Shown here piece by piece: positions 3,113 through 28,262 of a DNA stretch of 33,238 nt. How positions within the stretch are numbered: the first letter of the stretch is position 1; each line of letters opens with the position of its first letter. Below the pieces are notes generated by a model, which was not told where the DNA came from, ran no database searches, and worked only from the letters and a program-made list of their open reading frames with translations. Source of the stretch: Planctomycetota bacterium (GTDB taxonomy: Bacteria; Planctomycetota; Phycisphaerae; Phycisphaerales; Phycisphaeraceae); the NCBI GenBank assembly GCA_021784455.1, contig JAJXSS010000002.1, positions 1 to 33,238 on the forward strand, in the 5' to 3' direction. The position numbers and the translations under genes are program-made.

Positions 3113-3260
3113 TTGCGCGGCGTGGCGACCCATCGGCCGCTAATTCGAGTATGAGTCACCAGATGGTATGCTTGCCGTAGGGATTGCCACCGAAAGCCGG
3201 ATGGGCGACAATTGCCGGGCGGTGCGGTTATTGGGGCGTCCCGGCACAAATCTGGTCAGG

Positions 3261-4181
3261 ATGCGACGGGCAATGAGAATCAGAGAAAGACTGTTTCTGG
3301 TCGCGGGCCTGGTCGTTGTGTGCCTCGTGCCGAACCGCCTGTGGGCGGATGCGGGGAAGGTGGCGACTTCCGCCCCGACGGTGACGCGCTATGAGGCCGT
3401 GGCCGAAGCGCGCGAAGACCGGCGTTTGGGCTTTACCGTACCGGGCAAGGTGGCTCACATCCCGGTCAAGGAAGGCCAGCATGTGAAGGCCGGACAGGTT
3501 CTGATGGAGCTGGATGACCGGCAGGGGGTTCTGGCGGTGCAACTGGCGCAACTGGTGGCCCAAAGCCATCTGGAGGTGGAAGCTCAGGAGCAGAGCCTGG
3601 CCATGGCGCAATTGGAGGAGAAACGGCTGGCGCAACTGCTCAAGCAGTCGGCCGCCGCCCCCATCGAAGTGGAGCGGGCCAAGATTCGGGCCAAGGTGGA
3701 GGCGATCCGACTGGCCAAGACGAAGGAAGACGAGCAGGAGGCCCAGATCAAGGCCGCCCAGGCCGAGGCCCTGCACGAGCAGTATGTGTGCAAGGCGCCG
3801 TGTGACGGGGTCGTGGAGTCCATCGTGGTCAGCGAAGGGGAACTGGTCGAGGCCCTTAAGCCGGTGCTGCGGCTGGTGGCCACCGATCCCCTGTTGATTC
3901 AGGTCTGGGTGCCCACGCCGGACACCATGCGGCTCAAGCCGGGGGACCCGGCCTGGATCATTCATCCGCTGCTGGGCGAAAACAAGCCCATGCTGGGCCA
4001 CATCACCGCCATTGCCCAGGTGGCCGACAGCCTGGGCAAGCGTCAGGTGCGCATCGAGGTTCCCAATCCGCAAGGCCTGCCGGCCGGGGGCAAGGTCAGC
4101 GTGCAGTTTGTGGCACCGGTTGCGGCCCTCGGCGCGGCGCCGAGGGCCGGGCGGTCCCGGGCCGGGGAGGCTCAGCCATGA
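3261..4181 (+). CDS. HlyD-like periplasmic adaptor (membrane fusion) protein
   Basis: Signal-like RERLFLVAGLVVVCLVPNRLWA; lipoyl-like half GFTVPGKVAHIPVKEGQHVKAGQVLMELDD, alpha-hairpin, then CKAPCDGVVESIVVSEGELV. Start chosen at 3261 (3273 also possible) instead of the ORF-track start 3168. Confidence 0.82.
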   Translation: MRRAMRIRERLFLVAGLVVVCLVPNRLWADAGKVATSAPTVTRYEAVAEAREDRRLGFTVPGKVAHIPVKEGQHVKAGQVLMELDDRQGVLAVQLAQLVAQSHLEVEAQEQSLAMAQLEEKRLAQLLKQSAAAPIEVERAKIRAKVEAIRLAKTKEDEQEAQIKAAQAEALHEQYVCKAPCDGVVESIVVSEGELVEALKPVLRLVATDPLLIQVWVPTPDTMRLKPGDPAWIIHPLLGENKPMLGHITAIAQVADSLGKRQVRIEVPNPQGLPAGGKVSVQFVAPVAALGAAPRAGRSRAGEAQP

Positions 4182-6082
4182 CTCGTTTGCGAGCTGCGCC
4201 CAGCCGCCAGCCCCGGGCCTGGGAGGAACTGATCACCCAAGTGACCGCGGCGCCCGACCGGCCCACGGCCCTGCGTGGCATTCTGGAACTGCAGTGCCGG
4301 ATTGTCGCGGCGCAGTATGGCCTGTTCTGGGAGCCCGGGCCGGAAGGGGCGCCGGTGGCGACGATTTCCTGGCCGATGGCCGACGGCAGCACGGCCCTGG
4401 CCGAGCCCGTGCTGAAGATGCTGCAGCAGGCGGCCCGGACCGCCCTGGAGCGCGGGACCAGCCAGGTGCTGCGGGTGGAGCCGGCCGAAGGCAGCGGCCC
4501 GATGTCCAGCGACACCTATGTGTTCGTTACGGCGCTGCGGGCCGAGGGCCAGTGCGCGGCGGTGGTGACGGTGGTGGCCGAGGTGCGTGACACGCAGGTG
4601 ATCACGATAACCACGCCGCAGCGGGAGATTGCGGCCAGCCTGTATGAGAACGTGCTGGCGCGGCAGCGGCAGCAGTCGGCCGAGCTGGAGGCCCAGCGTG
4701 TGCGCCAGGCCATGGCGCTCTTGGCGGTGGTGCAGGACGGGCGGGGCTTTTCGGGATCGTGTCTGAACCTGGTCAATGAACTGGCGCGGTCGCTTAAGGC
4801 CGAGCGGGTGAGCCTGGGGTGGATCCGCGGCCGGAATCTGAAACTCAAGGCGGTCAGTGACAGCGAAGAGGTCAAGCACAAGGGCGAGCAGGCAGCGCTC
4901 CTGGAAATGGCGATGGCTGAGTGCCTGGACCAGCAGCAGCCCATCATGTGCCCGCTGCCCGAAAGCGCGGAACCGGCCCTGGCCCATGCGGTGGTCTACG
5001 GGCACCGGCGGCTGATCGAGGGGCAGAGCCAGAAACAGGTGGTTTCGGTGCCTCTGCGGCACGGGGAAGAATGGGTGGGCGTGCTGACGATCGAGCGGTG
5101 CGGCGACGCTCTGGATGCCGGCGATGTGCAGCGCCTGCAACTGATCGCGGATGTGATTGCTCCGCAACTGGCCGACCGCCGGGCCAGCGACCGCTGGCTG
5201 GGGGCCCAGGCGTGGGAATCATGCAAATGGACGGCGGGCAAGCTGGTGGGCCCCAAGCACGTGGGGTGGAAGCTGGCCGGGGCGGCCGTCCTGGTGGCGG
5301 TGCTGTACGTGCTGCTGGCCACCTGGCCATTCCGGGTGACGGCCTCCTTCCGACTCGAGGCGATGCAGCGGCAGGTGGTGCCGGCGCCCTTCCGCAACAA
5401 GCTGGATGAATTGCTGGTTCATCCGGATGACGTGGTACACAAGGGCCAGGTGCTGGCCAGGCTGGACACGACGGATCTGGCCATCCAACTGGCCGGGGCC
5501 CAGAAGCAACTGGAAGTGGCCCGCATCCAGCGTGACCAGGCTCTGGGGGATCCGAGCAAGCATGCGGAGGCGGAACTGGCCCAGGCCCAGGCCGATGAGT
5601 ACCAGGCCCAGGTGGACCTGCTGCAATACCAGATCCGCCAGGCGACCATCCGCAGCCCGGTGGACGGCGTGGTGCTCAACAGCTACTGGGAGCACCGTGT
5701 GGGCAGTGTGGTGGATCAGGATCAGCCCATGTTTGAGGTGGCGCCGCAGGGGGACGTGACGGCGGTGCTACGCGTGAGCGAGGGCGATGTACGCTACCTT
5801 CTGGACCGCGAGGGCCGGATGCGCCGCGGGCTGGTGGGCGAGCTGGCTACGCGCAGCGAGCCGGAGCAGACCTTTCCCATTCACGTGGAGCGGATCGTGC
5901 CCCTGGCCCAGCCGGTGGACGGCAAGAACGTGTTTGAGGTCTGGTGCGGTCTGGATCGTTCGGCCCCTTGGTTCCGCCCGGGCATGGAAGGGATGGCCAA
6001 GGTGGATGTGGGGCGCGAGCCGCTGTCGTGGATCCTGACGCACAAGATCGTAGATGCCGTACGGCTGTGGATGTGGTGGTGA
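4178..6082 (+). CDS. GAF-domain / TM / HlyD-like membrane fusion protein
   Basis: ATGA overlap with upstream gene; GAF-like N-terminal half, single hydrophobic segment VLVAVLYVLLATWPF, then RNKLDELLVHPDDVVHKGQVLARLDTTDL ... TIRSPVDGVVLNSYWEHRVGSVVDQDQPMFEV. Confidence 0.85.
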   Translation: MTRLRAAPSRQPRAWEELITQVTAAPDRPTALRGILELQCRIVAAQYGLFWEPGPEGAPVATISWPMADGSTALAEPVLKMLQQAARTALERGTSQVLRVEPAEGSGPMSSDTYVFVTALRAEGQCAAVVTVVAEVRDTQVITITTPQREIAASLYENVLARQRQQSAELEAQRVRQAMALLAVVQDGRGFSGSCLNLVNELARSLKAERVSLGWIRGRNLKLKAVSDSEEVKHKGEQAALLEMAMAECLDQQQPIMCPLPESAEPALAHAVVYGHRRLIEGQSQKQVVSVPLRHGEEWVGVLTIERCGDALDAGDVQRLQLIADVIAPQLADRRASDRWLGAQAWESCKWTAGKLVGPKHVGWKLAGAAVLVAVLYVLLATWPFRVTASFRLEAMQRQVVPAPFRNKLDELLVHPDDVVHKGQVLARLDTTDLAIQLAGAQKQLEVARIQRDQALGDPSKHAEAELAQAQADEYQAQVDLLQYQIRQATIRSPVDGVVLNSYWEHRVGSVVDQDQPMFEVAPQGDVTAVLRVSEGDVRYLLDREGRMRRGLVGELATRSEPEQTFPIHVERIVPLAQPVDGKNVFEVWCGLDRSAPWFRPGMEGMAKVDVGREPLSWILTHKIVDAVRLWMWW

Positions 6083-6179: not shown

Positions 6180-8342
6180 ATGGATCGGCCGACATTCAGC
6201 GAATCCTGGAGCCGCGTCAGCCGCCTGACCCCCACCCTGCGCCCGCAGGTGCAGGTGCGGCGGCGGAGCTTGTGCAGGCAGCGCTGGTACGTGCTGCACG
6301 AACCAGTCAGCCAGCAGTTTTTCCGGCTCAATCCGGTGGCCTACCACTTGGTGGGGCTGCTGGACGGCCACCGCATCGTGGACGATGCCTGGCGTCTGAC
6401 CCTGGAACGCTACGGAGATGATGCCCCCACCCAGCCGGAGGTGGTGGGTTTGCTGGGGCAGCTCAACCAGGCCAATCTGCTGCGGGTAGACCTGCCGGTG
6501 GACGCCGAGCCCCTGTTGCGCCGCTCGGGGGAACAGCGGGCGCGGCGCTGGGCGGGGCAGGCGATGAGCATTCTGTTTCTACAGGTGCCGCTCCTGGATC
6601 CCGACCCATTTCTGAGCCGCCTGCTGCCGCTGATGCGGCCGCTGCTGTCGGTGGTGGGGCTGATCCTGTGGGCGGTCTGGGTCACGGTGTGCGCGGTCCT
6701 GTTCCTGCCCCACCTGGGCACGTTCATCCACGACAGCGGCAGCATTCTGGCCCCGGCCAACTGGGGCTGGGTGATGGTGTTCTTCATCCTCATCAAGCTG
6801 GTCCATGAGACGGGGCACGGGCTGGTGTGCAAGCGTCTGGGGGGCAACGTGCACGAGGCGGGCATCATGCTGCTGGTGCTGTTTCCGTGCCCGTACGTGG
6901 ATACGACCAGTGCCTGGGCCTTCGAAAGCCGCTTCCAGCGGGTGCTGGTGGGGGCGGCGGGCATGATGTTCGAGCTGACGATTGCCGGGGGGGCGGCCCT
7001 GGTATGGCTGCACGCCGATCCGGGTACCACGGTGCGGCAGGTGGCCCACAACATCGTGCTGGTGGCCTCGGTGGCGACGGTGATCTTCAACGCCAACCCG
7101 CTGATGCGCTTCGACGGATACTTCATCCTCAGCGACCTGCTGGAAGTCCCCAACCTTTACGACCGCTCGATGCAGCACCTCAAATGGCTGGGGCAGCGTT
7201 ACGCCTTTGGCATGACCGCGGCCCCGCCGGTGGCCACGGACCGCGGCGAACGGCGCATCCTGCTGGTCTATGGGGTTCTGGCCGCCATCTACCGCGTGGT
7301 GGTCATGGCGGGCATCGCCATGCTGATCGCCGTGCGGTTCTTCACCATCGGTCTGGCCCTGGCCATCTGGACGGTGGGGGCGTGGCTGTTGTTCCCGCTG
7401 GGGAAGTTCGTGCACTGGCTGGCCACCAGCCCGGCCCTGCACCGCCAGCGCAACCGGGCGGTGCTGGTCAGCGTGGCCACGGCGCTTGCGCTGCTGCTGG
7501 CCATCGGCCTGGTGCCGGCCCCGCAGTACCAGCGGACCGTGGGCGTGGTCGAGGCCCGGCAGCGGGCGGATGTGGCCATCCAGAGCGACGGTTTCGTGCA
7601 GGAGGTCAAGGCGGAGGTGGGCGACGAGGTTCGCCAGGGGCAGGTGCTGCTGGTATGCGATAACCCCATCCTGCGGGCCCAGCGGCGGCAACTGGTCGCC
7701 CAGATCAAGGGTCTGCAGTTGGAGGAGACCTACGCCCTGCGCAATCCGGCCGATCTGGCCGTGGCCCAGGCCAAACACCGGGCCTTGCAGCAGGCCCTGG
7801 ATGATGCCAACGAGCGTATTGCGGACCTGGTGGTGCGCAGCCCGCTGGCGGGCCGGCTGGCCGGGCCGCCCCTGGCCCCGCTGCTGGGCCGCTACGTCAA
7901 GCGCGGCCATGTGGTGGCCCAGGTGGAGGATCTGCGGTCGCTGCGCGTCACGGCCCTGGTGGATCAGGCCCAGAACGCGCTGGGTTTTTTCAACAGCATC
8001 CGGGCCGTGGAATTGCGGGCCCCGGGCGATGTGGGCGTGGACCTGCCCAGCCGGGTGCTGCAGACGTTTGATTCCGGGCGAACGCAACTGCCCCACCCGG
8101 CGCTGGGGGCTCTGGACGGCGGGCCCGTGGCCACGGACCCGCACGATCCCAAGGGCATGACGGCGCTGCGCCCCCAGTTCGAGATCTGGCTGGCCGTGCC
8201 GCCGCCCCGGACCGCCGCGGATCCCCCGTTTCTGCCGGGCGAGCGGGTGTACGTGCGTTTCACGCTGGCTCAGCGGCGTCCGCTGCTGTGGCAGTGGATT
8301 CATCGGTTCCGCCAGATCTTCCGCGAGCCGTGGGAGACGTGA
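6180..8342 (+). CDS. PqqD-like / M50 site-2-protease-like / HlyD-lipoyl fusion protein
   Basis: PqqD-like N-terminus; HETGH zinc motif (6804-6818) and NPLMRFDG second motif among TM segments; C-terminal GFVQEVKAEVGDEVRQGQVLLVCDNP ... VVRSPLAGRLAGPPLAPLLGRYVKRGHVVAQVED. Confidence 0.85.
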   Translation: MDRPTFSESWSRVSRLTPTLRPQVQVRRRSLCRQRWYVLHEPVSQQFFRLNPVAYHLVGLLDGHRIVDDAWRLTLERYGDDAPTQPEVVGLLGQLNQANLLRVDLPVDAEPLLRRSGEQRARRWAGQAMSILFLQVPLLDPDPFLSRLLPLMRPLLSVVGLILWAVWVTVCAVLFLPHLGTFIHDSGSILAPANWGWVMVFFILIKLVHETGHGLVCKRLGGNVHEAGIMLLVLFPCPYVDTTSAWAFESRFQRVLVGAAGMMFELTIAGGAALVWLHADPGTTVRQVAHNIVLVASVATVIFNANPLMRFDGYFILSDLLEVPNLYDRSMQHLKWLGQRYAFGMTAAPPVATDRGERRILLVYGVLAAIYRVVVMAGIAMLIAVRFFTIGLALAIWTVGAWLLFPLGKFVHWLATSPALHRQRNRAVLVSVATALALLLAIGLVPAPQYQRTVGVVEARQRADVAIQSDGFVQEVKAEVGDEVRQGQVLLVCDNPILRAQRRQLVAQIKGLQLEETYALRNPADLAVAQAKHRALQQALDDANERIADLVVRSPLAGRLAGPPLAPLLGRYVKRGHVVAQVEDLRSLRVTALVDQAQNALGFFNSIRAVELRAPGDVGVDLPSRVLQTFDSGRTQLPHPALGALDGGPVATDPHDPKGMTALRPQFEIWLAVPPPRTAADPPFLPGERVYVRFTLAQRRPLLWQWIHRFRQIFREPWET

Positions 8343-8347
8343 CACCC

Positions 8348-10417
8348 ATGGCCAGCGCCCCGATCCAGTCCGATCTGGCTCTTTACTCGATGCTGCGCAC
8401 CCGGCGGCGGCGGGTGGAGATGCCGCGTGGCCTGGATGCCATGGCCAACCGCTGGCTGGCGCGGCTCAAGCACATCCGTCTCAACGTCCGGCAACTGAAG
8501 GCCCAGGCCCAGGCCATTGTGGCCCTGGAATCCGCGTGGGCCGAGCGGACGGAAGCGCAGTTGGAGGAGCGTCTGGAGGAGATCCGCACCGTTTTCGCCC
8601 GGCGGCGCCAGACCCCCGAGCACGTGCGGCAGGGTTTTGCCGCGGTGCGCGAGGTTGCCTGGCGCACCACGGGGGAACGGCCGTTCCCGGTGCAGATCAT
8701 GGGGGCCCTGGGGCTGTATTACGGGCAGATCGTGGAGATGGCCACGGGCGAGGGCAAGACCCTGACCGGGGCGCTGGCGGCGACGGTGCTGGCCTGGCGG
8801 CGTCGGCCGGTACACGTGGTGACGGTGAACGACTACCTGGCTCAGCGCGATGCCGACAGCCGCAACGTCATTTACCGCCGCTGCGGGCTGGCCTGCGGGG
8901 CCATCGTGGCCGACGCCCCGCCGCCGGCCCGGGCGGCCGTGTACCGCCTGCCCGTGGTGTACGCCACGGCCAAGGAACTAATGGCCGACTGGCTGCGCGA
9001 CCAGTTGCGCCTGGGGCGGATCGCCGATCCGGTCTCGACGCGCTGGGGCGACCGGCAGATCTGGCGCGGCGGGCGGGACCAGGCCTCCCTCCTCGAGCAG
9101 GTGCTGGTGCCGGGCCTGGGGGCAGCCATCGTGGACGAGATCGATGCCATCCTGATTGACGAGGCGGTGACACCCCTGATCATCGCCCAGGAGCGCGGCG
9201 AAGACCCGCAGCGCGACATCTATCGCCGGGCCCAGGAACTGGCCCGGAAACTGCAGCCGTTCAAGCACTTCACGCTGCGCGGCGTGGAGCGCCAGGCGGA
9301 CCTGACCGACCCCGGCCGGGACATGCTGGCGGCCCTGATCAGCCGCGAGGACCACGCGGTCTGGCACGCGCCGCGGCGCGCCGAGGAACTGGTGTCGCAG
9401 GCCCTGGCGGCCCAGCACTGCTATCACCTGGGTGAGCACTACCAGATCCTGGACGGCAAGGTGGTCATCGTGGACGAATACACCGGCCGGTTCATGGCCG
9501 ACCGGCAGTGGCAGAACGGCCTGCATCAGGCGGTGGAGGCCAAGGAGGACCTGTCGGTGACGGCCGACCGCGACACAGTGGCCAGCATCAGCTTCCAGCG
9601 CTTCTTCCGCCAGTATCCGCACCTGACGGGCATGACCGGCACGGCGGCCGATGCCCGGGGGGAAATGGAGCGCACCTATGGCCTGCCGGTGCGGGTGATT
9701 CCGACCAACCGGCCGGTGCGGCGCATCTACCGCCCGGTGCGCCTGTTCGCCCGGCAGCCGGAGAAGTGGCAGGAGGTGGCCCGGCACATTGCCCAGGTAC
9801 ATGCGACCGGCCAGCCGATTCTCGTGGGCACCCGTTCGGTGGCGGCCTCGGAATTGATCAGCGGCCTGCTGAGTGAGCGCGGCCTGGCGTACCAGGTGCT
9901 CAATGCCGTCCACCACAAGGCCGAGGCCCAGATCATCAGCACGGCCGGACAGCGCGGCATGATCACGGTGGCCACCAACATGGCCGGCCGCGGCACAGAC
10001 ATCAAGCTGGCCCCGGGCATCGCCGAGCTGGGGGGGCTGCACGTGATCCTGACCGAGCGGCACACGGCCCACCGCATTGATCGCCAGCTCATCGGCCGCT
10101 GCGGCCGCCAGGGTGATCCGGGGCTGGTGCAGGTGTTCGCCAGTCTGGAAGATGACCTGGTGGTCAAGTACACGCCCCGGCTGGCGGCGATCTTGAGGCG
10201 CTGGCTGGCCTGGCGCCAGGGCTCGGCCCGCCCGCCGGCCGGCCCCGGCGAGGCGTCCGCCCCAGACCCCGCCGGGTCGCCCAAGCCCCCCCGATCCTCG
10301 ACCGCAATCCTGCGGCTGTTCGATCTGGCCCAGTGGCTGGCCACGCGGCGGGCGTTCCAAAGCCGCCTGCTGGTGATCCGGCACGATTACGAGCTGGATA
10401 AGTCGCTGCCCTCCTAG
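8348..10417 (+). CDS. SecA-like ATPase lacking the C-terminal helical scaffold/wing region
   Basis: SecA motifs: EMATGEGKTLTGAL, VHVVTVNDYLAQRDA, VDEIDAILIDEAVTPLII, VVIVDEYTGRFMADRQWQNGLHQAVEAKE, HLTGMTGTA, VIPTNRPVRR, TVATNMAGRGTDI, RIDRQLIGRCGRQGDPG. Ends about 100 residues after the last motif. Start 8348 preferred over 8288. Confidence 0.88.
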   Translation: MASAPIQSDLALYSMLRTRRRRVEMPRGLDAMANRWLARLKHIRLNVRQLKAQAQAIVALESAWAERTEAQLEERLEEIRTVFARRRQTPEHVRQGFAAVREVAWRTTGERPFPVQIMGALGLYYGQIVEMATGEGKTLTGALAATVLAWRRRPVHVVTVNDYLAQRDADSRNVIYRRCGLACGAIVADAPPPARAAVYRLPVVYATAKELMADWLRDQLRLGRIADPVSTRWGDRQIWRGGRDQASLLEQVLVPGLGAAIVDEIDAILIDEAVTPLIIAQERGEDPQRDIYRRAQELARKLQPFKHFTLRGVERQADLTDPGRDMLAALISREDHAVWHAPRRAEELVSQALAAQHCYHLGEHYQILDGKVVIVDEYTGRFMADRQWQNGLHQAVEAKEDLSVTADRDTVASISFQRFFRQYPHLTGMTGTAADARGEMERTYGLPVRVIPTNRPVRRIYRPVRLFARQPEKWQEVARHIAQVHATGQPILVGTRSVAASELISGLLSERGLAYQVLNAVHHKAEAQIISTAGQRGMITVATNMAGRGTDIKLAPGIAELGGLHVILTERHTAHRIDRQLIGRCGRQGDPGLVQVFASLEDDLVVKYTPRLAAILRRWLAWRQGSARPPAGPGEASAPDPAGSPKPPRSSTAILRLFDLAQWLATRRAFQSRLLVIRHDYELDKSLPS

Positions 10418-14817: not shown

Positions 14818-16509
14818 TCATGCCGGGACATCCGGCGGGGGCGGCTCCTCCAGGTTGCTGGCCTCGGGGCCGAGGGTTTCGGTGGAGGCCGGGGCTTGGC
14901 CCGGATCGGTAGGCAGGTGCATGGTGAAGACGGTGCCTGCCTGCGGGGCGCTTTCCACGGTGATGCTGCCGCCGTGCTCTTCGACAATCTTTTTGGTGAC
15001 GGCCAGACCCAGGCCCGTGCCGCGCTGGCCCTTGGTGGAGTGGAAGGGCAGGAACAGGTACTGGCGGTGGGAGGGGTCGATGCCTTCGCCGTTGTCCGAC
15101 ACCGACAGATGCACCTGATGCGCCGGATCGTCCCAGAAGCAGCGCAGGGTGACGACGCCCGACTCGGGCTGCACCGCTTCCAAGGCGTTGGCCAGCAGGT
15201 TCAGCACGGCCTGATGCACGCCGCCGGCATCGGCCGGCACGGGCGGGAGGTTGGGATCCAGCTCGGTGATCAGGGCCACCTTTTTGGCGTCGAACTGGTG
15301 CTGTACCAGCTCGATCACTTCTTCCAGCAGGGCGTGCAGGTTGGTCATCTCCAGCTCCGGGCGGCGCTGCTTGGAGAAGGCCAGCATGTTCATGGTGAGC
15401 TGGGAGATGCGGTCCAGGTTGCGGGCCACGATATCCCAGCCGTTGTGCACAATGCTCATGTTCTGCTTGCGCAGGCCCAGCTCCACCACCTCGGCCCCGC
15501 CCTTGAGGCCCTGGATGATGTTCTTGACCGAGTGCGACAGCGAAGCCACCGTCTGGCCCACGGCCGCCAGGCGCTCGCGCTGGACGCGCTCGGCGTAGAG
15601 CTTTTCATTGTTCAAGGCCAGCCCGATCTGCACGCCCACGGCCGTCAGCAGCCGCAACTGGTCTTCGGTGTAGGTGTAGTTGGCGATCTGGCTGTCGAGG
15701 TACAGGACGCCGAAGGTGTTGTCCTTGAAGCGGATCGGGGCGCACAGGGCCGAGCGGATGCCATAGCGCTGCACGCTTTCCCCCGAGGCGAAGCGCTTGT
15801 CCGCCATGGCGTTGGAGGACAGCACGCCCTCTCCGCGTTTGAGCACGTGATTGACGATGGTGCGGCTGACGGTGATAGGGGCCGGGCTGGGTTGCTTAAG
15901 CGGCATGCGGTGGCGCACCGCCACCGGCTGCCAGCGCGGCTGGGCGCCTTCCATCAGCAGGATGAAGCCGCGGTCGGCCTGGAAATAATCGAACACCACG
16001 TCCAGCGTGCGTTCCAGGAGCTGCGAGCGATTGGTGACCGTGCCGATGAGCTGGGTCATCTCGTAGATGACCTTGAGCTGGAACACGGCCGCCTCGGTGG
16101 GCTCGGGCACGGCCATGATCATCGAGTCTTCGTTGCTGGCGGCGGTGGCCTCGACGTGGGAGTCGAGTTCGCCGGGCCGGGCCAGACGCACGCCCGGGTG
16201 GCTGCCCTCGCGGGGCAGCTCGCGGCCGAACACGAACACGGTGTTGCCGGTGCGGATCTGGTCGCCGGCCTGCAGAAGCCGCCGTTCCATGACCCGCTGC
16301 CCGTTAACGTACGAGCCGTTGGCGCTCTGCAGGTCGCTGATGAACCAGCGGCCCTCATCGGGGGTCAGCTCGGCGTGGCGGCGCGAGATGGTCTGATCGG
16401 TCAGCGGCAGCGATTCGCTGGAGCGCCCGATCATCTGCGGCTCATTGTCCGGCAGCACGAAGCGCTTGCCCTTATCCGGACCTTTCAGAACTGTGAGAAT
16501 CAAGGACAT
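14818..16509 (-). CDS. FHA-GAF sensor histidine kinase
   Basis: FHA: MIGRSSESLPLTDQTISRRHAEL...DLQSANGSYVNGQRV; GAF middle; H-box VASLSHSVKNIIQGL; HATPase DNGEGI, GTGLGLAVTKKIVEEHGG. Confidence 0.92.
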   Translation of the reverse strand: MSLILTVLKGPDKGKRFVLPDNEPQMIGRSSESLPLTDQTISRRHAELTPDEGRWFISDLQSANGSYVNGQRVMERRLLQAGDQIRTGNTVFVFGRELPREGSHPGVRLARPGELDSHVEATAASNEDSMIMAVPEPTEAAVFQLKVIYEMTQLIGTVTNRSQLLERTLDVVFDYFQADRGFILLMEGAQPRWQPVAVRHRMPLKQPSPAPITVSRTIVNHVLKRGEGVLSSNAMADKRFASGESVQRYGIRSALCAPIRFKDNTFGVLYLDSQIANYTYTEDQLRLLTAVGVQIGLALNNEKLYAERVQRERLAAVGQTVASLSHSVKNIIQGLKGGAEVVELGLRKQNMSIVHNGWDIVARNLDRISQLTMNMLAFSKQRRPELEMTNLHALLEEVIELVQHQFDAKKVALITELDPNLPPVPADAGGVHQAVLNLLANALEAVQPESGVVTLRCFWDDPAHQVHLSVSDNGEGIDPSHRQYLFLPFHSTKGQRGTGLGLAVTKKIVEEHGGSITVESAPQAGTVFTMHLPTDPGQAPASTETLGPEASNLEEPPPPDVPA

Positions 16510-16629
16510 AAGTCAGTCCGCACATCCATCGCCCGTGGCGGGGCTCCCGGAACAGACGAACAAGACGAATACCATGCCGGCGAATTTTCCCAGGCTTGCG
16601 CCCGAGGCTGAGTTTCCACGCCCCGCGGG

Positions 16630-18171
<1,542 letters not shown>

Positions 18172-18250
18172 GCCCGACAGTGTACCACCGTGCGCCGGAG
18201 ACCCTGCCGGGCTGCGAAAAAGATAATGCCTGCATTCTTATAGATATAAT

Positions 18251-18277
18251 ATCATATAAACAATGTGTTTATATGAT
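18251..18277. promoter_or_regulatory. Perfect AT-rich palindrome ATCATATAAACA-ATG-TGTTTATATGAT upstream of argH (candidate operator)
   Basis: 12-bp perfect arms read directly, in an isolated AT-rich patch between the downstream end of the 18284-19405 gene and the argH start. Confidence 0.5.
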
Positions 18278-18283
18278 TCAAGG

Positions 18284-19405
18284 TTAGGCCGCTTCCAAGC
18301 CGGGAGTGTCGCTTTCATCGGACTTCTCGGGCAGGTGCCGATGATGCACCCGGATTATCCGGGCCAGGCTGGTGCCGACGGTGTCCGCGATGGCTGACAG
18401 CGTCTCCAGCACTTCTTCATCAAAGGCCTGCGCGTGATTGCGGAACAGCACAATCACCGCCAGTGCTTCCTGCTCGTGCCGGCAGGTGATGGCGGCCAGG
18501 TGGCAGTCTTCCAAGGCATGCCAGCCCTCACCCACTAGGTCCACCAGGGCCTGGTTGTCCGTGAGGTGAACCACCCCCTCGCGCTCAGCCAGTTGCGGGG
18601 CCAGCACATCACCCAGGTGTTGCAGCAGAAAATCCGGCGAGTCCTGGCTGCAGTCGTAATTGATGTAGCCGCCCAGGGCGTATTCGTCGCCGCCGGAGGG
18701 CAGGAACACGGCGGCGTTGGTCGGTCCGGCCTTGTCCAGAACATATTCCAGCAGCTTGCGCACGAACTGCTCCAGATCCAGCTCGGACCGGACGGCGGCG
18801 TTGAACTCGCTGGACTGGATGGCCTGCTGCATCTGCTGGGCCAGTTCCTGGTAGGCGTTGACCAGGTCGTTGCACAGCGTGTCCACCTGCTGGGCGATCT
18901 CCTGCCGGGCCTGATCCAGGCTGCGGCAGAGCTTGCGCAGGTTGCGAACGCGGTTGTGTACGCGGCGATGGGCCCGGGCCCGTTCCATGGCCAGGTGCAG
19001 ACGTTCCTCCGTATCGCGCGGGTCCAGCGGCTTGGTCAGAAGATCGGTGATCCCGGCCCGCATGGCCTCGACCACCACCGGCGAAGTGGCATCTTGCACC
19101 AGCAGGATAACCTGGGCGCCGGACCGGTGGGCCAGGACTTCGCGGGCCAGCTTCATGGCCGCCCCATCCACCGTCTGCGGCTCAACCAGCATGATGTTAA
19201 TCGGCTGGGAGGTGAGGAATACCCGAGCCTGGGCCAGCGTGGAGGCAAAGTGCAGGTGCTGGCCGCGCACGCTGGGGCAAGTCTCGAGGGTCGGACGGAG
19301 GGATTCGTCGCGATCCACGATGAGCACATGCAGGGGCCGGCCCTGGGAGCCGGCGGGGGTCGCCACGGGAGTTCGTCGGGAAGCGGTGGAAGATTGCCGG
19401 GTCAC
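18284..19405 (-). CDS. Receiver-domain-like protein with C-terminal GAF-like domain
   Basis: HVLIVDRDESLR ... IMLVEPQTVDG ... TDLLTKPLD receiver layout; GAF-like C-terminus. GTG start at 19405 with AGGAG upstream preferred over 19480. Confidence 0.75.
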   Translation of the reverse strand: MTRQSSTASRRTPVATPAGSQGRPLHVLIVDRDESLRPTLETCPSVRGQHLHFASTLAQARVFLTSQPINIMLVEPQTVDGAAMKLAREVLAHRSGAQVILLVQDATSPVVVEAMRAGITDLLTKPLDPRDTEERLHLAMERARAHRRVHNRVRNLRKLCRSLDQARQEIAQQVDTLCNDLVNAYQELAQQMQQAIQSSEFNAAVRSELDLEQFVRKLLEYVLDKAGPTNAAVFLPSGGDEYALGGYINYDCSQDSPDFLLQHLGDVLAPQLAEREGVVHLTDNQALVDLVGEGWHALEDCHLAAITCRHEQEALAVIVLFRNHAQAFDEEVLETLSAIADTVGTSLARIIRVHHRHLPEKSDESDTPGLEAA

Positions 19406-19543
19406 TGCTTTCTCCTGCCTGCCGTTGCCAAAGTCATGCGTGTGATCGTTCCGCAATCCCCGGCCAGGCCCGTACCTCAATCTGTATCGGCCGTCCGCCC
19501 GAGCGGATCAAGTTCCGCCGGCTCCGGCCGGGCCGCCTGGCTT

Positions 19544-21877
19544 TCAGGCCGGATCCGAGTTCGGAGTCTCCAGGGGAATCAGCAGCACAGCCGTTGTGCC
19601 CTGGCCTACCTGGCTGCGCAACTCCACCCGTCCGCCGTGGGCGGCGGCCAGCAACTGGGCCTTGGGCAGCCCCATCCCCGGCTGGCGGCCAGCGGCCTTG
19701 CTGCTGAAAAACGGGTCCATGGCATGGGCCAGCGTATGGCTGTCCATCCCCTGGCCGTCGTCGCTGATTTCCAGTACCAGAATGGCCCCACCAGCCTCCA
19801 ACCGGGCGCTGAGGCGTACCGGATTATGCGGCTGGGATCCCAGGGCGTTGTGTACCAGTTCGGCCACGGCGGTCCGCAGTTGGCCGGCATCCACGGGCAC
19901 CGTCAGGGGTGCGGGCTGGACGCTCACCTGCACGGCCACGGGCACCGGCCCCGGCGTGAATCGCCCCTGGGCCTCTTTGACTGCTTCCTCCAGCAGCGGG
20001 CGGAGGTTCTGCGGCCGGCGCTGGGCCTGCGGGGTTTCGGCGCGCAGACGCATAAGCGAGATCATCTCGGACAGGCGGTGGGCCTGTTCGGTGATGGTGC
20101 GGGCCGCCTGCTGTTCCTTGCTGTCGCGCGGCAGGATCTGGGCCAGGAGCTGGGCCCGGCCGGAGATCACCGCCAGCGGATTGTTCATTTCGTGGGCGGC
20201 TCCGGCCGCCATCTCGCCCAGCCGGGCCAGGGATTCGGATTGCAGCAGGCGATCCTGAGCTTCCGCCAGGGCGCTGTTGGCCTGGGCCAGTTGTTCGCCC
20301 AGGCGCCGGGCCCCGTCGTATTGCCCGGCCGCGGCAATGGCTGCGCCCCAACTGTGGGTGAGGGCCTGCAACTGGGTCCAGGGAGGCAGATTCGGCCGGT
20401 CGTGGATGAGCAGGGCCGCCGTGCCCCAGCCCGAGCCCAAGGGCAGGATGCGCAACTGGCGCAGATCGGGCGCCTGGGGCAGGCAGTCGGCCAGGATGGG
20501 CATGATGCCCATGAGATTGAGCGAGGCGGGTTGGGCGGCGTCCAGACGCGACAGGTCGGGGCAGGTGCTGGGCGGCGGGATGAACTGGCTGTGGGTCGGC
20601 CGGCCCTCCGCGTTGTACTGGCAGACCAGCCACTGGTCCCGGGCGGAGGCCTGGTACACCATCGCGTAGTACCCCGGTCCCAGCACGGAGGTGGCGCTGA
20701 CCACGGCCTGGCTCAGCACATCTTCGACGCTGCGGCCCGGAAGAGCCGCGCCATGAAAGGCAACGATGGCATCCAGAAGCTGCGTCTGCCGCTGGCCCAG
20801 GCGGCCGCGCCGCTCCAGGGCCATGTTCAGCCGGCCCAGCATCTGGTTGGCCTGCTGGATGGACTGGAGGAACAGCTCGCGCGAGGGTTGCTCGTCCAGG
20901 CCCAGGGTTCGGCAGCGCGCTTCCAGCAGGGTGTGCAGGCCGTCGCCGATGCGGTTGGAGGCATCGGCCGGCAGCTCCAGCGCCCGGGCCAAGGCACCTT
21001 CCTCCTGCGGAAAGCTGAAATTGCCGCTGTAACCCAGATGCATGCGCCGGGCCACCAGATCGGCCAGGCTGATCAGACCCACCATGCGCCGGTGTTCGAG
21101 TTTGGGCAGAAGTTCGTAGGGGCAGCCGTGCAGCCAGATGCAGTCCTGGATCAGGTGGGGCAGGCACCACTGTTCGGCCAGGCGTTTGCCGGCCGTATGG
21201 TGGTCAATGCCGATGATGCGCCGCTCGAATTCGGCGATGTTGCCCTGGTTCAGGGCCACCAGTTCGACCACGCGGCCGAAGCTCTTGGGCAGCACGAAGT
21301 CCAGGGCCAGTTTGCCGATGTCGTGCAGCAGGCCACAAACGAATGCTTCGTCGGGATTGAGCTGGTGGCGCGGGTCCAGTTTGGCCAGTTGCTCGGCCGC
21401 CAGGGCCGTGGCCAGACAGTGCCGCCAGAACGCCGGGCGGTCCAGCTCCAGGTCCGTGCCGGGATGCCCCGGCGCGACGCCTGCGCCCGTGGCGTCCGGT
21501 TGCGGCTCGGTGCTTGCGACTTCCGGCCGGGGGTCGGACCGGAACATCTCGAACACCTTGATGGACAGCACCGCGTTGCGCACGGCGGTGAAGCCCAGCA
21601 GCACCACGGCCTTGTCCAGGGTGACGGCCTCCTCGCGCAGGCCCAGGTCGGCCCGCCGGCTGATGCTCAGGATGCGGCTGGTCAGGGCGGGGTCGCAGCG
21701 CAGGACCTCGACGACCTGGCTGGCTTCCGATTGTTCATCGCTGGTCAGGGCCAGCAGACGCATGGCCACGGCCGGCAGCGTCGGCAGACCGTCGATCTGG
21801 CGCAGGATCAGCTCGATGCGCCGCGTCTTGGCCGGATCGGCCGGGGCCAGCACGGGATTCATGGGCAGGGTCGTCAT
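19544..21877 (-). CDS. HDOD-domain sensor histidine kinase
   Basis: HDOD: LPTLPAVAMRLLALT...DPALTSRILSISR...LLHDIGKLALDF; kinase: LGEMAAGAAHEMNNPLAVISGRAQLL, ISDDGQGM, GMGLPKAQLLAAAHGGRVEL. Confidence 0.9.
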   Translation of the reverse strand: MTTLPMNPVLAPADPAKTRRIELILRQIDGLPTLPAVAMRLLALTSDEQSEASQVVEVLRCDPALTSRILSISRRADLGLREEAVTLDKAVVLLGFTAVRNAVLSIKVFEMFRSDPRPEVASTEPQPDATGAGVAPGHPGTDLELDRPAFWRHCLATALAAEQLAKLDPRHQLNPDEAFVCGLLHDIGKLALDFVLPKSFGRVVELVALNQGNIAEFERRIIGIDHHTAGKRLAEQWCLPHLIQDCIWLHGCPYELLPKLEHRRMVGLISLADLVARRMHLGYSGNFSFPQEEGALARALELPADASNRIGDGLHTLLEARCRTLGLDEQPSRELFLQSIQQANQMLGRLNMALERRGRLGQRQTQLLDAIVAFHGAALPGRSVEDVLSQAVVSATSVLGPGYYAMVYQASARDQWLVCQYNAEGRPTHSQFIPPPSTCPDLSRLDAAQPASLNLMGIMPILADCLPQAPDLRQLRILPLGSGWGTAALLIHDRPNLPPWTQLQALTHSWGAAIAAAGQYDGARRLGEQLAQANSALAEAQDRLLQSESLARLGEMAAGAAHEMNNPLAVISGRAQLLAQILPRDSKEQQAARTITEQAHRLSEMISLMRLRAETPQAQRRPQNLRPLLEEAVKEAQGRFTPGPVPVAVQVSVQPAPLTVPVDAGQLRTAVAELVHNALGSQPHNPVRLSARLEAGGAILVLEISDDGQGMDSHTLAHAMDPFFSSKAAGRQPGMGLPKAQLLAAAHGGRVELRSQVGQGTTAVLLIPLETPNSDPA

Positions 21878-22608: not shown

Positions 22609-23076
22609 GGTGAGGTCCTTGAATGGCGCTGCCCCGCCCGGGGCCGGCGCAGGCCGGGCGAACGGCGGATTCGCCCCAGCTTGCCCACCTTTACATCGGA
22701 TCGCGCGGGCTCTTGCTTAACGGGGGGAAGACGCCGCCCATCCTTAAATACACCGGCCCCGCGGGCTTCGAGGGGAGCCTGTAGCGTCTGGGCAAGAGCC
22801 GGGTCGGCCCGAGGCGACGAAATCTGCTGCGCGGGGTTGTTCCGGTCGGCGTTGAATCGTTTGGTAGGAGAGCATGGGTAAGCCCGGCTCCATGGGCGGA
22901 GCCGGCAAGAAAGGAAAGTGAGGAAATTGAGGCCGACAAGTTAAGCAGGGGCTGGCAACGGACGATGAGAGGAAGGAACGCCCCGGGCGAGGCCCGGGGA
23001 AATTGCAGGGAGTTCGGGTTCGTGTGAACCCGCCGCAGCACAACGGGTTTGGATGGTCACGCCTAACAGAGGAGAA

Positions 23077-23574
23077 ATGGCAATGAGCAAGGCACGCAAG
23101 GGTTTCACGCTGGTCGAAATTCTGATCGTGGTGGTGATTTTGGGCATTTTGGCGGCAATCGTGATTCCTCAGTTCACGAATGCCAGCGAAAGCGCCCGGG
23201 CTTCCAGCCTGATTTCACAGCTCCAGAGCATCCGCAGCCAGCTCGAGCTGTATCAGGTGCAGCACAACGGCACCTACCCTGACCTGAGCACCGACTGGAC
23301 GCCCATGACCGAATACACTGAAATCGACGGTACGGTGCATGCCACCAAGCCGGCCAACAACAGCCCGGTGGTGTACGGGCCCTACCTGCAACAGGCCCCG
23401 GTGAACCCCTTCGAGAACAGCTCGACGGTCAGCCAGGCCGACCCGTTGCCGGCGGGTGTGGCGGGTACGGGCTGGGTGTATGACAACACCAACGGCCAGG
23501 TCAAGGGAGTAATCGCGGCCACCAAGGCCACCGAAGTGAACCTGACGAACACCAACGACATCGCCACCTACTAA
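23077..23574 (+). CDS. Type II secretion / type IV pilus-like major pseudopilin (GspG-like)
   Basis: RKGFTLVEILIVVVILGILAAIVIPQFTNASESAR prepilin signature; GAGGAGA RBS before ATG 23077. Confidence 0.9.
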   Translation: MAMSKARKGFTLVEILIVVVILGILAAIVIPQFTNASESARASSLISQLQSIRSQLELYQVQHNGTYPDLSTDWTPMTEYTEIDGTVHATKPANNSPVVYGPYLQQAPVNPFENSSTVSQADPLPAGVAGTGWVYDNTNGQVKGVIAATKATEVNLTNTNDIATY

Positions 23575-23600
23575 GCGGCAAGCGTTGGTCAGCAACTTCA

Positions 23601-23635
23601 GGCCACTCCGCTCTAACGACCGGAGTGGCCTTTTT
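23601..23635 (+). terminator. Intrinsic terminator after the GspG-like gene
   Basis: GGCCACTCCG-CTCTAACGAC-CGGAGTGGCC followed by TTTTT. Confidence 0.85.
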
Positions 23636-23646
23636 CAAGCCCGCCG

Positions 23647-24366
23647 ATGACACAGTGCCGATGGCGGCGGGCCGAAGCGCCAGGCACGGAAAGGCTCACC
23701 CCGGTGCGGACGCCGCGCTCCATTTTGGACGCCGAAACGGGCGAGGGGGGCTCGCCGCCCTTGCTCTCGCCGGTGTCCGTTCAAGCCCCGTCCGCCGGGG
23801 CGATCCCCTCGGGCCGGCGGCCGGTGGGCCAGGCCCCGGTTGAAATCGAGGAGCCCGGGCCCGGACCGCGTCACCGCTCCGGCGTGCTGGAAATCCTGAC
23901 CGTCGTGGCGGTCATGGGCGCCCTGGCGGCCCTGGTGGTGCCGCGGGCCATCCTGGCCGCCGAAGCCCCCCACGACCGCGCCTTGAAACAGGATGTCACG
24001 CACCTGCGCGACCAGATTCTCATTTACCGCGCGGAACACCACGGCGTGGCCCCGGGCTACCTCAATGGCGACCCCACGCAACCGCTCTCCCTGGATGCCT
24101 TCACGGCCCAGATGACCCAGTACACCGACGATCTGGGGCGGGTCTCCCCGGTGAAAGATGCCGCCCACCACCTGGGGCCTTACCTGGCCCGCGTCCCCGT
24201 CAACAGCATCAACGGCAGCGGGGAAATCCGCTTCCTGGGCCGTTCCGCGACGTTTCCCGACCAGCCGGTCGGCGCGGAAGGCTGGTTGTACCAGCCCTCC
24301 ACGGGCATCCTTGCGGCCAACGTGACCGGCCACGATGCGGCCGGCACCGCGTACTTCGACTATTAG
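23647..24366 (+). CDS. Pseudopilin-like paralogue with N-terminal extension and degenerate prepilin site (start uncertain)
   Basis: RHRSGVLEILTVVAVMGALAALVVPRAILAAEAPHDRALKQDV hydrophobic pilin-like helix; C-terminal half parallels the upstream GspG-like protein (GPYLARVPVN / GPYLQQAPVN; AEGWLYQPSTG / GTGWVYDNTNG). Confidence 0.65.
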   Translation: MTQCRWRRAEAPGTERLTPVRTPRSILDAETGEGGSPPLLSPVSVQAPSAGAIPSGRRPVGQAPVEIEEPGPGPRHRSGVLEILTVVAVMGALAALVVPRAILAAEAPHDRALKQDVTHLRDQILIYRAEHHGVAPGYLNGDPTQPLSLDAFTAQMTQYTDDLGRVSPVKDAAHHLGPYLARVPVNSINGSGEIRFLGRSATFPDQPVGAEGWLYQPSTGILAANVTGHDAAGTAYFDY

Positions 24367-24479
24367 GCCGGCCGGGCCGGCCCCCGCGTCCGGGACCAGA
24401 GATGGTCCCAGCGGCGGGCCAGTCCCCCCGGCTACGCCAAATGTTCGGGCCCGCCCGAACCTACCTGATGGAGGTCCTT

Positions 24480-24749
24480 ATGCGAAGCCTTACCTACCTG
24501 AATGTGGTTCTGAGTCTCATTGCTGTTCTGTTGACGGCCGTGTTGTGGACGATGTGGTCCAACCCGGCGGTCGACCTGACGGCCTCGGCCCGGGCCCAAG
24601 GGCTGACCGACCCCGGCGCCCAGCGGGCGGCCCAGATCGACCAGCTTAAGAGCATCAATCAGAAGGTCGAAGAACTTACGAGACTGTTCAAGTCCGGCCA
24701 GGCACGGGTGCGGCTGGAAAACGCGCCGGGGGACGACAAAGGCCATTGA
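24480..24749 (+). CDS. Small single-TM protein of unknown function inside the pseudopilin operon
   Basis: GGAGG RBS before ATG 24480; MRSLTYLNVVLSLIAVLLTAVLWTMW, then a polar tail. Confidence 0.65.
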   Translation: MRSLTYLNVVLSLIAVLLTAVLWTMWSNPAVDLTASARAQGLTDPGAQRAAQIDQLKSINQKVEELTRLFKSGQARVRLENAPGDDKGH

Positions 24750-24772
24750 ATCGGGGCAAGGGACTTGAGGAT

Positions 24773-25282
24773 ATGAGCAAGCCACGTCGAATCCTGCACC
24801 GGGGTGCCTTCACCTTGGTGGAGGTGCTGATGGTAGTCGCCATCATGGGCATCGCCGCGGCGATGGTGGTGCCGGCCATGCTTCAGGGCAGCACCATGAG
24901 CCTGCAGGCGGCGGCCCGCATGATCGTTTCCGACATGTTGTATGCCCAGAATGATGCCATCGCCCGCCAAGCCAACCGCCGGGTGGTCTTCGACACAGCC
25001 CACAACAGCTACGAACTGACGGATGCCTCCGGCACGCTGCTGGACCCATCCGAGGCCGCCGGGCGGGGCAGCTTTTTGGTGGATTTCAGTACGGACAGCC
25101 GTTTTTCCGGTGTCACGCTCGTCTCGGCCGCCTTTGGCGGTCAGGCCACACTGGAATTCGACCCGCTGGGCACCCCTCTGGTGGGCGGGGCCGTGCAGAT
25201 CAGCGGGGGCGGGCATAAGTACGAGATCGACGTAACCGATATCACCGGCCGGGTCACCATCTGTGACCTGTCGGGGCAGTAA
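24773..25282 (+). CDS. GspH/FimT-like pseudopilin
   Basis: HRGAFTLVEVLMVVAIMGIAAAMVVPAMLQGS prepilin-type N-terminus; beta-rich C-terminus. Confidence 0.82.
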   Translation: MSKPRRILHRGAFTLVEVLMVVAIMGIAAAMVVPAMLQGSTMSLQAAARMIVSDMLYAQNDAIARQANRRVVFDTAHNSYELTDASGTLLDPSEAAGRGSFLVDFSTDSRFSGVTLVSAAFGGQATLEFDPLGTPLVGGAVQISGGGHKYEIDVTDITGRVTICDLSGQ

Positions 25283-25310
25283 ACGCGGACCGAGAAGGGA
25301 GATCCATTCG

Positions 25311-26489
25311 GTGTTTGGAGGCATACTGGCATCCTCACGCACCCCCCTGGGGCTGGACTTCGGGACGCGCAGCGTCCGTCTTCTGCAATTAGGGTGCGGC
25401 AAGCAGGAGTGGGCGGTGGCGGCCGCCGCGGAGGCGGCGCTTCCGGCCGATCTGCCGGCCCAGGGGCCCGATCGCCACACCGCGCTGGTGGAGCTGCTCA
25501 AGGGCCTGTTGGCGCAGGGCGGGTTCCGCGGTCGCAAGGTCGTCAGTTGCCTGCCCTCGGCCTGCGTGCAGTACAAGAGCGTGCGCCTGCCGCGTATGCC
25601 CGACGAAGAAATGCGCACGGCGGTGGAGTGGGAAGCCAAGGAACGCATGCGTCCGGCCCATGCCTCCGCCAATGCCGGGGAGCTGATCGTGCAGTTCTAT
25701 GATGCGGGGGAAGTCCGCCAGGGGGAGGAGGCGCGTCAGGAAATCATCGTAATGGCGGCTGAGGCCAGCGCCGTGACGGAGCATGTCGCGGCGTTGCGTG
25801 CCGCCGGCCTGGTGCCCCTGGCCATCGATGCCGCGCCCAGCGCCCTGGCCCGGGCTCTGGCTCGAACCGGTGCGGCTCTTCCGGGGGCGTCGACCGACAG
25901 CAGCGCCCCGGAAGAGGAGGCTCCCGCCCGCTTCATCCTGGATGTCGGTTTCGGGGTTTCCAAAGTCCTTATCGTGCGCCAGGGGCGCATTGTGTTCTAC
26001 AAGACCATCGAGATCGGTGGGGGCCGCTTCGACCAGACCGTGGCGACCAAGCTGAACCTGCCTCTGGCCGATGCGGCGCATATCCGCAGCAGCCTGCGCC
26101 GGGAAGAACCTGCGGCTGCAAGCCCGCCGCTCTTTGGTTCCGACCGCCGGGAAAGCGTGGAACGAGCCGTCTTCGAGGCCCTGCGCCCCCTGGTGGAAGA
26201 ACTGGTCCGCGAAGTGGGCCTGTGCCTGCGCTATTACGGGGTGACGTTTCGTGGGCGGCGTCCGGAACAGGTCCTGCTGGCGGGGGGCGAAGCCGGTGAA
26301 CCCAGTCTGATCAAAGCCCTGACCCAGGAGGCCAGCCTGCAGGTGGCGCCGGCCCAGCCGCTGGTGGCGATTGATCCGGCTCTGCTGCTGAACCAAGGCG
26401 TGCCGGCCCAGAGCTTGGCGGCCTGGTCGGTGGCCACCGGGCTCTGTCTGCGTCCGCCAGCCCGTCAGGCGCAACGGAGGGCCGCATGA
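25311..26489 (+). CDS. pilM: Type IV pilus assembly protein PilM-like (actin-like ATPase)
   Basis: PLGLDFGTRSVRLLQL, EEEMRTAVEWEAKE-like segment (DEEMRTAVEWEAKERM), FILDVGFGVSKVLIVRQGRIVFYKTIEIGG, VLLAGGEAG. Confidence 0.85.
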   Translation: MFGGILASSRTPLGLDFGTRSVRLLQLGCGKQEWAVAAAAEAALPADLPAQGPDRHTALVELLKGLLAQGGFRGRKVVSCLPSACVQYKSVRLPRMPDEEMRTAVEWEAKERMRPAHASANAGELIVQFYDAGEVRQGEEARQEIIVMAAEASAVTEHVAALRAAGLVPLAIDAAPSALARALARTGAALPGASTDSSAPEEEAPARFILDVGFGVSKVLIVRQGRIVFYKTIEIGGGRFDQTVATKLNLPLADAAHIRSSLRREEPAAASPPLFGSDRRESVERAVFEALRPLVEELVREVGLCLRYYGVTFRGRRPEQVLLAGGEAGEPSLIKALTQEASLQVAPAQPLVAIDPALLLNQGVPAQSLAAWSVATGLCLRPPARQAQRRAA

Positions 26490-27133
26490 GCGAGATTGAT
26501 TTTCTACCTCCGGAATTCCTGAAGCGCCAGGGTCACCGCCGACGCGTGGTCCGTCAGGGCGTGCTGCTGGGGGTGGCGTGGCTGCTGCTGGTGGGCTGGT
26601 TTGCGGCCCGCCAGGGCAACCTGATGCGCTTGAATCAGTACGCCCGGAGCCTGGAGGCCCAGGCCTCGGCTCTGCACCTGCAGGCTCAGCAGTTGGCCGA
26701 TCTACAGCGACAGAAAGCCCTTCTGCAGAACCGTCTGGCGGTGGATCGCGAACTGCGGCCGGCGGCGTCTTACACGCAGATCGTCAGCGCGCTGTCGCGC
26801 GTTATGCCACCCGCCCTGACCCTGCTGGAACTGAGGCTGACCGACAGCCATGGCCCGGCTCCGACCGCGGCCCACGGGGGCAGCGGCCCCCCGCGCCGGG
26901 GCCCGCCTCTGGTGCATCTGGCCCTGGATGGGGTGGCTCCCAACGATGGGGATGTTGCCGACTTGGTAGGTCGGGCCACGGATTTCCCGCTGTTTACCTC
27001 GGTCAAGCTCCTGTACTGCCGATCCCAGAAGATGGGCGATCTGACGGTGCGTAATTTCCGGATGGAGATGGATGTGCCGTTGGACTGCCGGTACCTGCCG
27101 CGCACGGCGGAGGGGGTGGCCCGTGCGCATTGA
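26486..27133 (+). CDS. PilN-like inner-membrane assembly protein
   Basis: IDFLPPEFLKRQGHRRR N-terminus, one TM, coiled-coil; ATGA overlap with pilM. Confidence 0.75.
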   Translation: MSEIDFLPPEFLKRQGHRRRVVRQGVLLGVAWLLLVGWFAARQGNLMRLNQYARSLEAQASALHLQAQQLADLQRQKALLQNRLAVDRELRPAASYTQIVSALSRVMPPALTLLELRLTDSHGPAPTAAHGGSGPPRRGPPLVHLALDGVAPNDGDVADLVGRATDFPLFTSVKLLYCRSQKMGDLTVRNFRMEMDVPLDCRYLPRTAEGVARAH

Positions 27134-27683
27134 ACGGGATCAGGCCCGTGTGGCGGTGTTGATCTGCGCAGGGGCCGTCGTGTTCGCCGTGGGGGCCTGG
27201 TGGCCCCAGTACCGCCGCGAGCAGGCCCTGGGCCGGCGCATTGCCCTCGCCCAGCAGGAGATTCAGAACGATGATGGGCCTAGCGCCGATCTGGCCGGGC
27301 TGGCCCGCCAGGTGGCCGATCTGCAGTCCACGCTGGATGCCTCGGCCCAGCACCTGTCCCAGCCCGATGAACTGGCCGAGGCCCTCAAGTACCTCAGCGC
27401 CCGCATGGAGGCCTTGCACCTGACCGATCAGCAGATTGTGACGGGGAGCCTGAGGTCCGAACCGCACTACGCGATTCTGCCGCTAACTCTGCAATTTCGC
27501 GCCAGCTTTCCCAGCGCGTTTGCGCTGGTCAAAGAGATCGAGTCCATGCCGCGTCTGGCCCGGGTGGTCCGTCTGAGCCTGGCCAACGATGCCTCGCGCA
27601 CGGATCGGCCGGTCGCGGTCTCGCTGGAAATGGAACTGTTTTTCACCCCGACCCCGACCGCCCGCCAGGAGGGCAAGCCATGA
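27123..27683 (+). CDS. PilO-like assembly protein
   Basis: GTG 27123 overlaps the PilN-like gene end; single N-terminal TM, coiled-coil, LTLQFRASFPSAFALVKEIESMPRLARV. Confidence 0.7.
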   Translation: MRIERDQARVAVLICAGAVVFAVGAWWPQYRREQALGRRIALAQQEIQNDDGPSADLAGLARQVADLQSTLDASAQHLSQPDELAEALKYLSARMEALHLTDQQIVTGSLRSEPHYAILPLTLQFRASFPSAFALVKEIESMPRLARVVRLSLANDASRTDRPVAVSLEMELFFTPTPTARQEGKP

Positions 27684-28216: not shown

Positions 28217-28262
28217 ACTTCAAGGAAAACCGGGAGGCACGCGCTCAGCGCAGGAGTCCGGT

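Follow-up and report, generated by a model that had tools for sequence, protein, structure and literature searches.

Short SecA-type ATPases encoded with PqqD-M50-HlyD proteins and their association with LEPR-XLL giant proteins

Introduction

The closest described relatives of the system studied here are the 'secondary SecA_DEAD domain proteins' of Kamneva, Poudel and Ward (2015, PMC4452313), whose genes accompany those of three HlyD-type proteins. In these proteins, the SecA_DEAD domain is accompanied by a fragmentary wing-scaffold or by none. Their genes occur in Planctomycetes and Proteobacteria, next to genes for HlyD, GAF-HlyD and M50-HlyD proteins and sometimes an OEP. The same study proposed that the SecA and M50 proteins act in secretion as ATPase and pore, respectively, reported no ABC transporter in the loci, named no substrate and described the biological role as unknown.

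Two sequence models, LEPR-XLL (NCBIfam NF012209) and Planc_extracel (Pfam PF07595, 'Planctomycete extracellular'), describe an N-terminal motif that we also encountered in giant proteins encoded beside such loci. Planc_extracel is said to go back to Studholme 2004. In a literature search conducted mostly outside subscription journals, no source linked either model to SecA or HlyD, and no source found assigned an exporter to them.

Here, we describe a 33,238-nucleotide stretch of DNA from a Planctomycetota bacterium (assembly GCA_021784455.1, contig JAJXSS010000002.1; hereafter, the window), which is contig C45 of a genome that is 70.8% complete.

Results

A four-gene module in the window

The window contains a complete and nearly gapless module encoding a membrane-fusion protein (MFP), GAF-HlyD, PqqD-M50-HlyD and a short SecA. 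The features are as follows:

3168..4181, + strand: module gene 1, periplasmic MFP of the HlyD/RND_mfp type with an apparent signal peptide (HlyD_3 1.8e-16; TIGR01730 1e-36)
4178..6082, + strand: GAF-HlyD, with an N-terminal GAF domain, one transmembrane segment and a C-terminal HlyD part (Pfam GAF 1.5e-9, HlyD_3 4e-9)
6180..8342, + strand: PqqD-M50-HlyD membrane protein (Pfam PqqD 3.7e-7, HlyD_D23 2.9e-7; NF041824 1.6e-50)
6804..6818, + strand: HExxH motif (HETGH) of the M50 protease core, from motif comparison among relatives
8348..10417, + strand: short SecA-type ATPase of 689 aa, starting 6 bases past the end of the M50 gene
8744..8761, + strand: Walker A (TGEGKT), invariant in aligned homologues
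9212..9538, + strand: preprotein cross-linking domain (PF01043), from Pfam
10301..10405, + strand: final element, a single long helix that spans residues 652-686, corresponds to where the SecA scaffold helix begins and forms the protein terminus, from the AF2 model and alignment

The GAF-HlyD gene overlaps the MFP gene by 4 bases. The PqqD-M50-HlyD protein consists of a PqqD-like N-domain, a transmembrane zinc-protease core (HETGH, NPLMRFDG) and a C-terminal HlyD part. Its AF2 model (pLDDT 84.8) matched MacA/MexA-type adaptors, and the score of its M50 core against the daptide protease model NF041824 fell under the cut-off of 300 bits. HExxH was present in 46/46 M50 relatives with a recognised active-site motif, and NPLxxxDG in most of them.

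The shortened SecA

The longest frame of the short SecA gene opens at GTG 8288, and homologues favour ATG 8348, in agreement with the initial annotation. Translation confirmed every motor signature stretch quoted there, and the product ends in RAFQSRLLVIRHDYELDKSLPS followed by the stop. Pfam searches identified SecA_DEAD (E 1.6e-86), SecA_PP_bind (9e-24) and the SecA P-loop domain (6e-52), and matched no wing or scaffold model. The protein scored 529-547 bits, under the NCBIfam SecA cut-offs of 800-862, and it missed all of the SecA2 models, scoring 474, 453, 418 and 381 bits against cut-offs of 1085, 930, 725 and 1100, respectively. Walker A and the remaining core residues of the ATPase were invariant in all 19 of the aligned short SecAs. 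The gene encodes a bona fide ATPase of the SecA type, shortened but intact, with the DEAD motor motifs and the preprotein cross-linking domain.

We located the end of the protein by aligning it with 12 canonical SecA/SecA2 proteins. Its tail, FQSRLLVIRHDYELDKSL, lines up with canonical FEIRKHLLEYDEVMDEQRK, after which there is no further alignment. Missing are the helical wing, the rest of the scaffold, the two-helix finger, the C-terminal linker and the zinc tail. The alignment thereby bears out the initial annotation, which had put the stop roughly at the canonical RKxLLEYDDV segment and the finger and wing beyond it. The AF2 model (pLDDT 82) agreed, with the motor and preprotein domain followed by the terminal helix. 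Foldseek matches of this model were SecA throughout, the best being the SecY-bound SecA structures 6itc (TM 0.79) and 5eul (TM 0.78), so that superposition confirmed a SecA-like fold.

A frameshift that hides a normal C-terminus, which the initial annotation had raised, was rejected, as was an assembly error. All 18 aligned homologues stop at this point, as do all the module SecAs examined, and none of them carries a complete HSD/HWD. In addition, a tblastn search of the 2.4 kb around and after the gene end with a canonical SecA C-terminus returned only a 13-residue chance match (E 2.8), and the next gene downstream encodes a YjgF/Rid protein (Pfam). Based on the common end point, the lack of a downstream remnant and the identity of the next gene, a frameshift or sequencing error is excluded for practical purposes. 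An apparently longer module homologue in one genome (G004; 880-aa open frame) proved to be a 741-aa ORF with the same terminal helix. The truncation is not peculiar to this gene but defines the family published in 2015.

A tree of 59 SecA sequences, 26 of them short forms, was used to place the protein. A branch with SH-aLRT 100 divided the 26 short forms from the canonical SecAs, and the canonical side held both the C. difficile SecA2-like copy and the source genome's own canonical copy. The latter, a separate housekeeping SecA, lies on contig C224 (L171); this gene is cut by the contig end, and its C-terminus thus falls outside the comparison.

With respect to known proteins, the short SecA shares the motor domains, the preprotein cross-linking domain and the fold with canonical SecA (B. 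subtilis 1tf5, 6itc, 5eul; E. coli), but lacks the regions listed above and differs in gene neighbourhood and tree position. Like Gram-positive SecA2 (C. difficile 6sxh, M. tuberculosis 4uaq), it is a second SecA beside a housekeeping SecA and a candidate for accessory export. However, the aligned C. difficile sequence keeps the finger region and groups with canonical SecA, and SecA2 has no HlyD or M50 partners. By contrast, the short SecA agrees with the secondary SecA_DEAD proteins in every feature compared: SecA_DEAD is present with SecA_SW missing or fragmentary; it is encoded with M50-HlyD, HlyD and GAF-HlyD; and it is separate in the tree from canonical SecA, a canonical copy of which is encoded elsewhere in the genome. 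It belongs to that published family and four-gene export cluster; the link to LEPR-XLL giants described below is new here.

Conservation of the module

The module is conserved in Planctomycetota, Alpha-, Beta- and Gammaproteobacteria and one Myxococcota-assigned MAG; specifically, the four genes were present in Roseomonas, Rubrivivax, Achromobacter, Gammaproteobacteria, Azonexus and the Deltaproteobacteria/Myxococcota MAG. A contig scan with the short-SecA alignment gave at least about nine module loci among the matches listed, and wider sampling was by genome search. MFP orthologues lie beside the module in most loci, the GAF-HlyD gene is conserved next to the M50 gene, and OMF (OEP) genes adjoin the module in four related loci. 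In the window itself, we found neither an OMF gene nor a LEPR giant. Domain searches detected no ABC transporter among the window genes searched. Among the gene neighbours covered by such searches, neither a radical-SAM enzyme nor any other modifying enzyme was seen.

An M50-HlyD protein was encoded in 40/41 Planctomycetota genomes with a short SecA. The PqqD-M50-HlyD protein thus appears to be the most constant partner of the short SecA, an interaction suggested by gene neighbourhood. The initial annotation had reasoned that a motor without the finger would need a different partner, perhaps the adjacent MFPs. Because the motor has neither finger nor wing and is encoded next to conserved membrane-fusion (HlyD-type) proteins, a partner outside the usual SecY-finger arrangement is plausible and indeed likely; the most constant of these neighbours is PqqD-M50-HlyD.

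LEPR-XLL giants beside the module

In several phyla, the immediate neighbour of the module is repeatedly a giant protein. These very large ORFs open with a basic stretch, which precedes a FESLEPRVLLSAD-type motif (consensus [LF]E-x-LE-P-R-x-LL-S-A/G); this motif is the NF012209 tag. The tag also has a weak likeness to PF07595, all matches to which were under the cut-off. No hydrophobic Sec-type signal core was found in the N-terminal regions of the giants. RTX repeats, considered as a mark of classical type I secretion, were absent or few in most of them and numbered 7-14 in three, a pattern that does not decide the matter.

In Rubrivivax, the sole LEPR protein of the genome (3623 aa) adjoins the module. 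In Achromobacter piechaudii, two LEPR ORFs pass the cut-off, and each adjoins an M50 module. The order at one locus is TolC, 10,915-aa giant, GAF-HlyD, M50, short SecA and MFP; the second module (L234, G299:C12) has no adjacent short SecA and has its own 4,321-aa LEPR giant. In the closest relative of the window (G077), a giant with the variant motif LETLEQRKMLT directly follows the short SecA. NF012209 gave no match in some short-SecA genomes, including this one. The motif was absent from ORFs of at least 300 aa across 59 canonical-SecA loci (1.06 Mb); as the pattern was drawn from the module loci, independent evidence comes only from its absence in these controls. The source genome encodes five LEPR-type ORFs on other contigs (LEGLEPRVMLSG, LEQLEARVLLSG, FEALEARVLLSA, LEQLEPRVLLSV and LENLEARKMLSA), and two of these carry the domains CARDB/FKBP and DUF4347-CHAP, respectively. 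LEPR-XLL open frames reached 13,848 (G357:C1:429854), 12,249 (G411:C1:2506229) and 10,951 codons (G220:C58:111104), which is very large for bacteria.

We evaluated co-occurrence using NF012209, a model built independently of the present work, against the M50-HlyD protein. Among 294 Planctomycetota genomes, LEPR proteins were found in 33/67 with M50-HlyD versus 3/227 without (p=1.3e-21), and the association held within families (Mantel-Haenszel (CMH) z=3.9). In the class of the Rubrivivax genome G298 (238 genomes, centre left out), the corresponding values were 18/25 versus 14/213 (p=3e-13), or 15/25 versus 2/213 at E<=0.002. In this class, LEPR and M50 genes were close together in 8 of the 18 genomes with both, where random placement would give 0.6. 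Similarly, in the class of the Roseomonas genome G297 (151 genomes, centre left out), the values were 4/7 versus 5/144 (p=2e-4). The counts carry shared descent among the sampled genomes, and the three separate samples agree. Five LEPR genomes had no M50 match.

A hand tally of the Planctomycetota separated the contribution of the short SecA. LEPR proteins were present in 26/40 genomes that encode both M50 and short SecA, in 7/27 that encode M50 only and in 3/226 that encode neither; they were commoner with the short SecA than in M50-only genomes (p=0.002). From this tally, M50-HlyD looks like the core of the system, and the short SecA like a motor that is common but may be replaceable.

Discussion

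These data point to a specific candidate cargo for the module described in 2015. They also offer a candidate exporter for an orphan N-terminal tag that is found on very large surface proteins of bacteria. We consider it probable, on evidence from gene association, that the module exports the LEPR-XLL giants, with the short SecA acting as motor wherever it is present and intact. The machine would be a Gram-negative exporter assembled from SecA and type-I-secretion-like parts, the short SecA being its ATPase subunit. Its cargo would be very large proteins that bear a basic stretch and the LEPR-XLL motif in place of a Sec signal peptide. Recognition of the tag could take place in the cytoplasm, and the PqqD-like domain of M50-HlyD is a plausible candidate for it, since PqqD domains are leader-binding domains. 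The short SecA would then thread the chain by means of its DEAD motor and preprotein domain, with the M50-HlyD and GAF-HlyD membrane proteins replacing the finger-SecY arrangement as partner. The intact M50 active site may remove the tag, and the HlyD parts together with a TolC-type protein might guide the polypeptide through the periplasm and the outer membrane.

We also lean, with slightly less assurance, towards a dedicated route separate from Sec, Tat and ABC-driven type I secretion. Along it, the LEPR-XLL tag would lead giant adhesin-like proteins through a PqqD-M50-HlyD complex, which a finger-less SecA would power in many lineages and which may cleave the tag through M50. Type I secretion (HlyB-HlyD-TolC) shares with the module the HlyD-type adaptors and a giant, adhesin-like candidate cargo; for a TolC-type outer membrane protein, the counterparts are the OEP genes at the four related loci, with none found in the window. 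It differs in its ATPase, which in the module is SecA-type; no ABC transporter is known in module loci, the neighbours at loci other than the window having been partly searched. In addition, the module's putative signal is N-terminal, not C-terminal, and its adaptor is fused to an M50 protease.

The simplest form of the motor role does not fit every locus. A short SecA is missing from several M50-HlyD modules that adjoin a LEPR giant (L227, L229, L230, L234, L138 and L178), so it cannot be the sole driver. In G030 (contig C12, L262:7157-9109), the module SecA occupies its usual place but its Walker A, Walker B/DExD and motif VI are unrecognisable. This SecA is likely a dead ATPase, and yet the genome encodes LEPR proteins with a strong LEPR-XLL match. 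Such loci, together with the loss of finger and wing, lend some credit to a different division of labour, in which M50-HlyD and GAF-HlyD export the giants, the short SecA is a targeting or unfolding chaperone that prevents long chains from folding, and energy comes from housekeeping SecA-SecYEG or the proton-motive force. We regard this as unlikely, given the invariance of the core ATPase residues in the aligned short SecAs and the higher frequency of LEPR proteins in short-SecA than in M50-only genomes.

The SecA fold, the preprotein domain and the SecY-bound structures among the best model matches would also suit an accessory motor of the SecA2 type, acting on normal Sec substrates together with ordinary SecYEG; the neighbouring HlyD proteins would then belong to a separate efflux system. 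This is less likely still: the two-helix finger and the wing, both of which meet SecY, are missing, M50-HlyD accompanies the short SecA in all but one of the 41 Planctomycetota genomes, and LEPR proteins lack a Sec signal core. Finally, PqqD domains bind RiPP leaders and the M50 core resembles the daptide protease model, albeit under its cut-off, but manufacture or export of a small RiPP-like peptide, with the link to giants arising from shared surface or contact lifestyles, is very improbable in view of the lack of modifying enzymes among the neighbours searched and of the giant LEPR protein that recurs next to the module in several phyla.

Export of the giants by the module, if true, would mean that a SecA motor has been cut back and rewired to HlyD-type adaptors. 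Achromobacter and Rubrivivax are culturable hosts for both ideas, the cargo and the exporter.

Other genes in the window are of different types. Type IV pilus-like genes, encoding an N-methylation prepilin-like protein, PilM and a secretin, occupy 23053-30416. On the minus strand, 14818-21877 encodes an FHA-GAF-histidine kinase, a response regulator-GAF protein and an HDOD-histidine kinase around argininosuccinate lyase.
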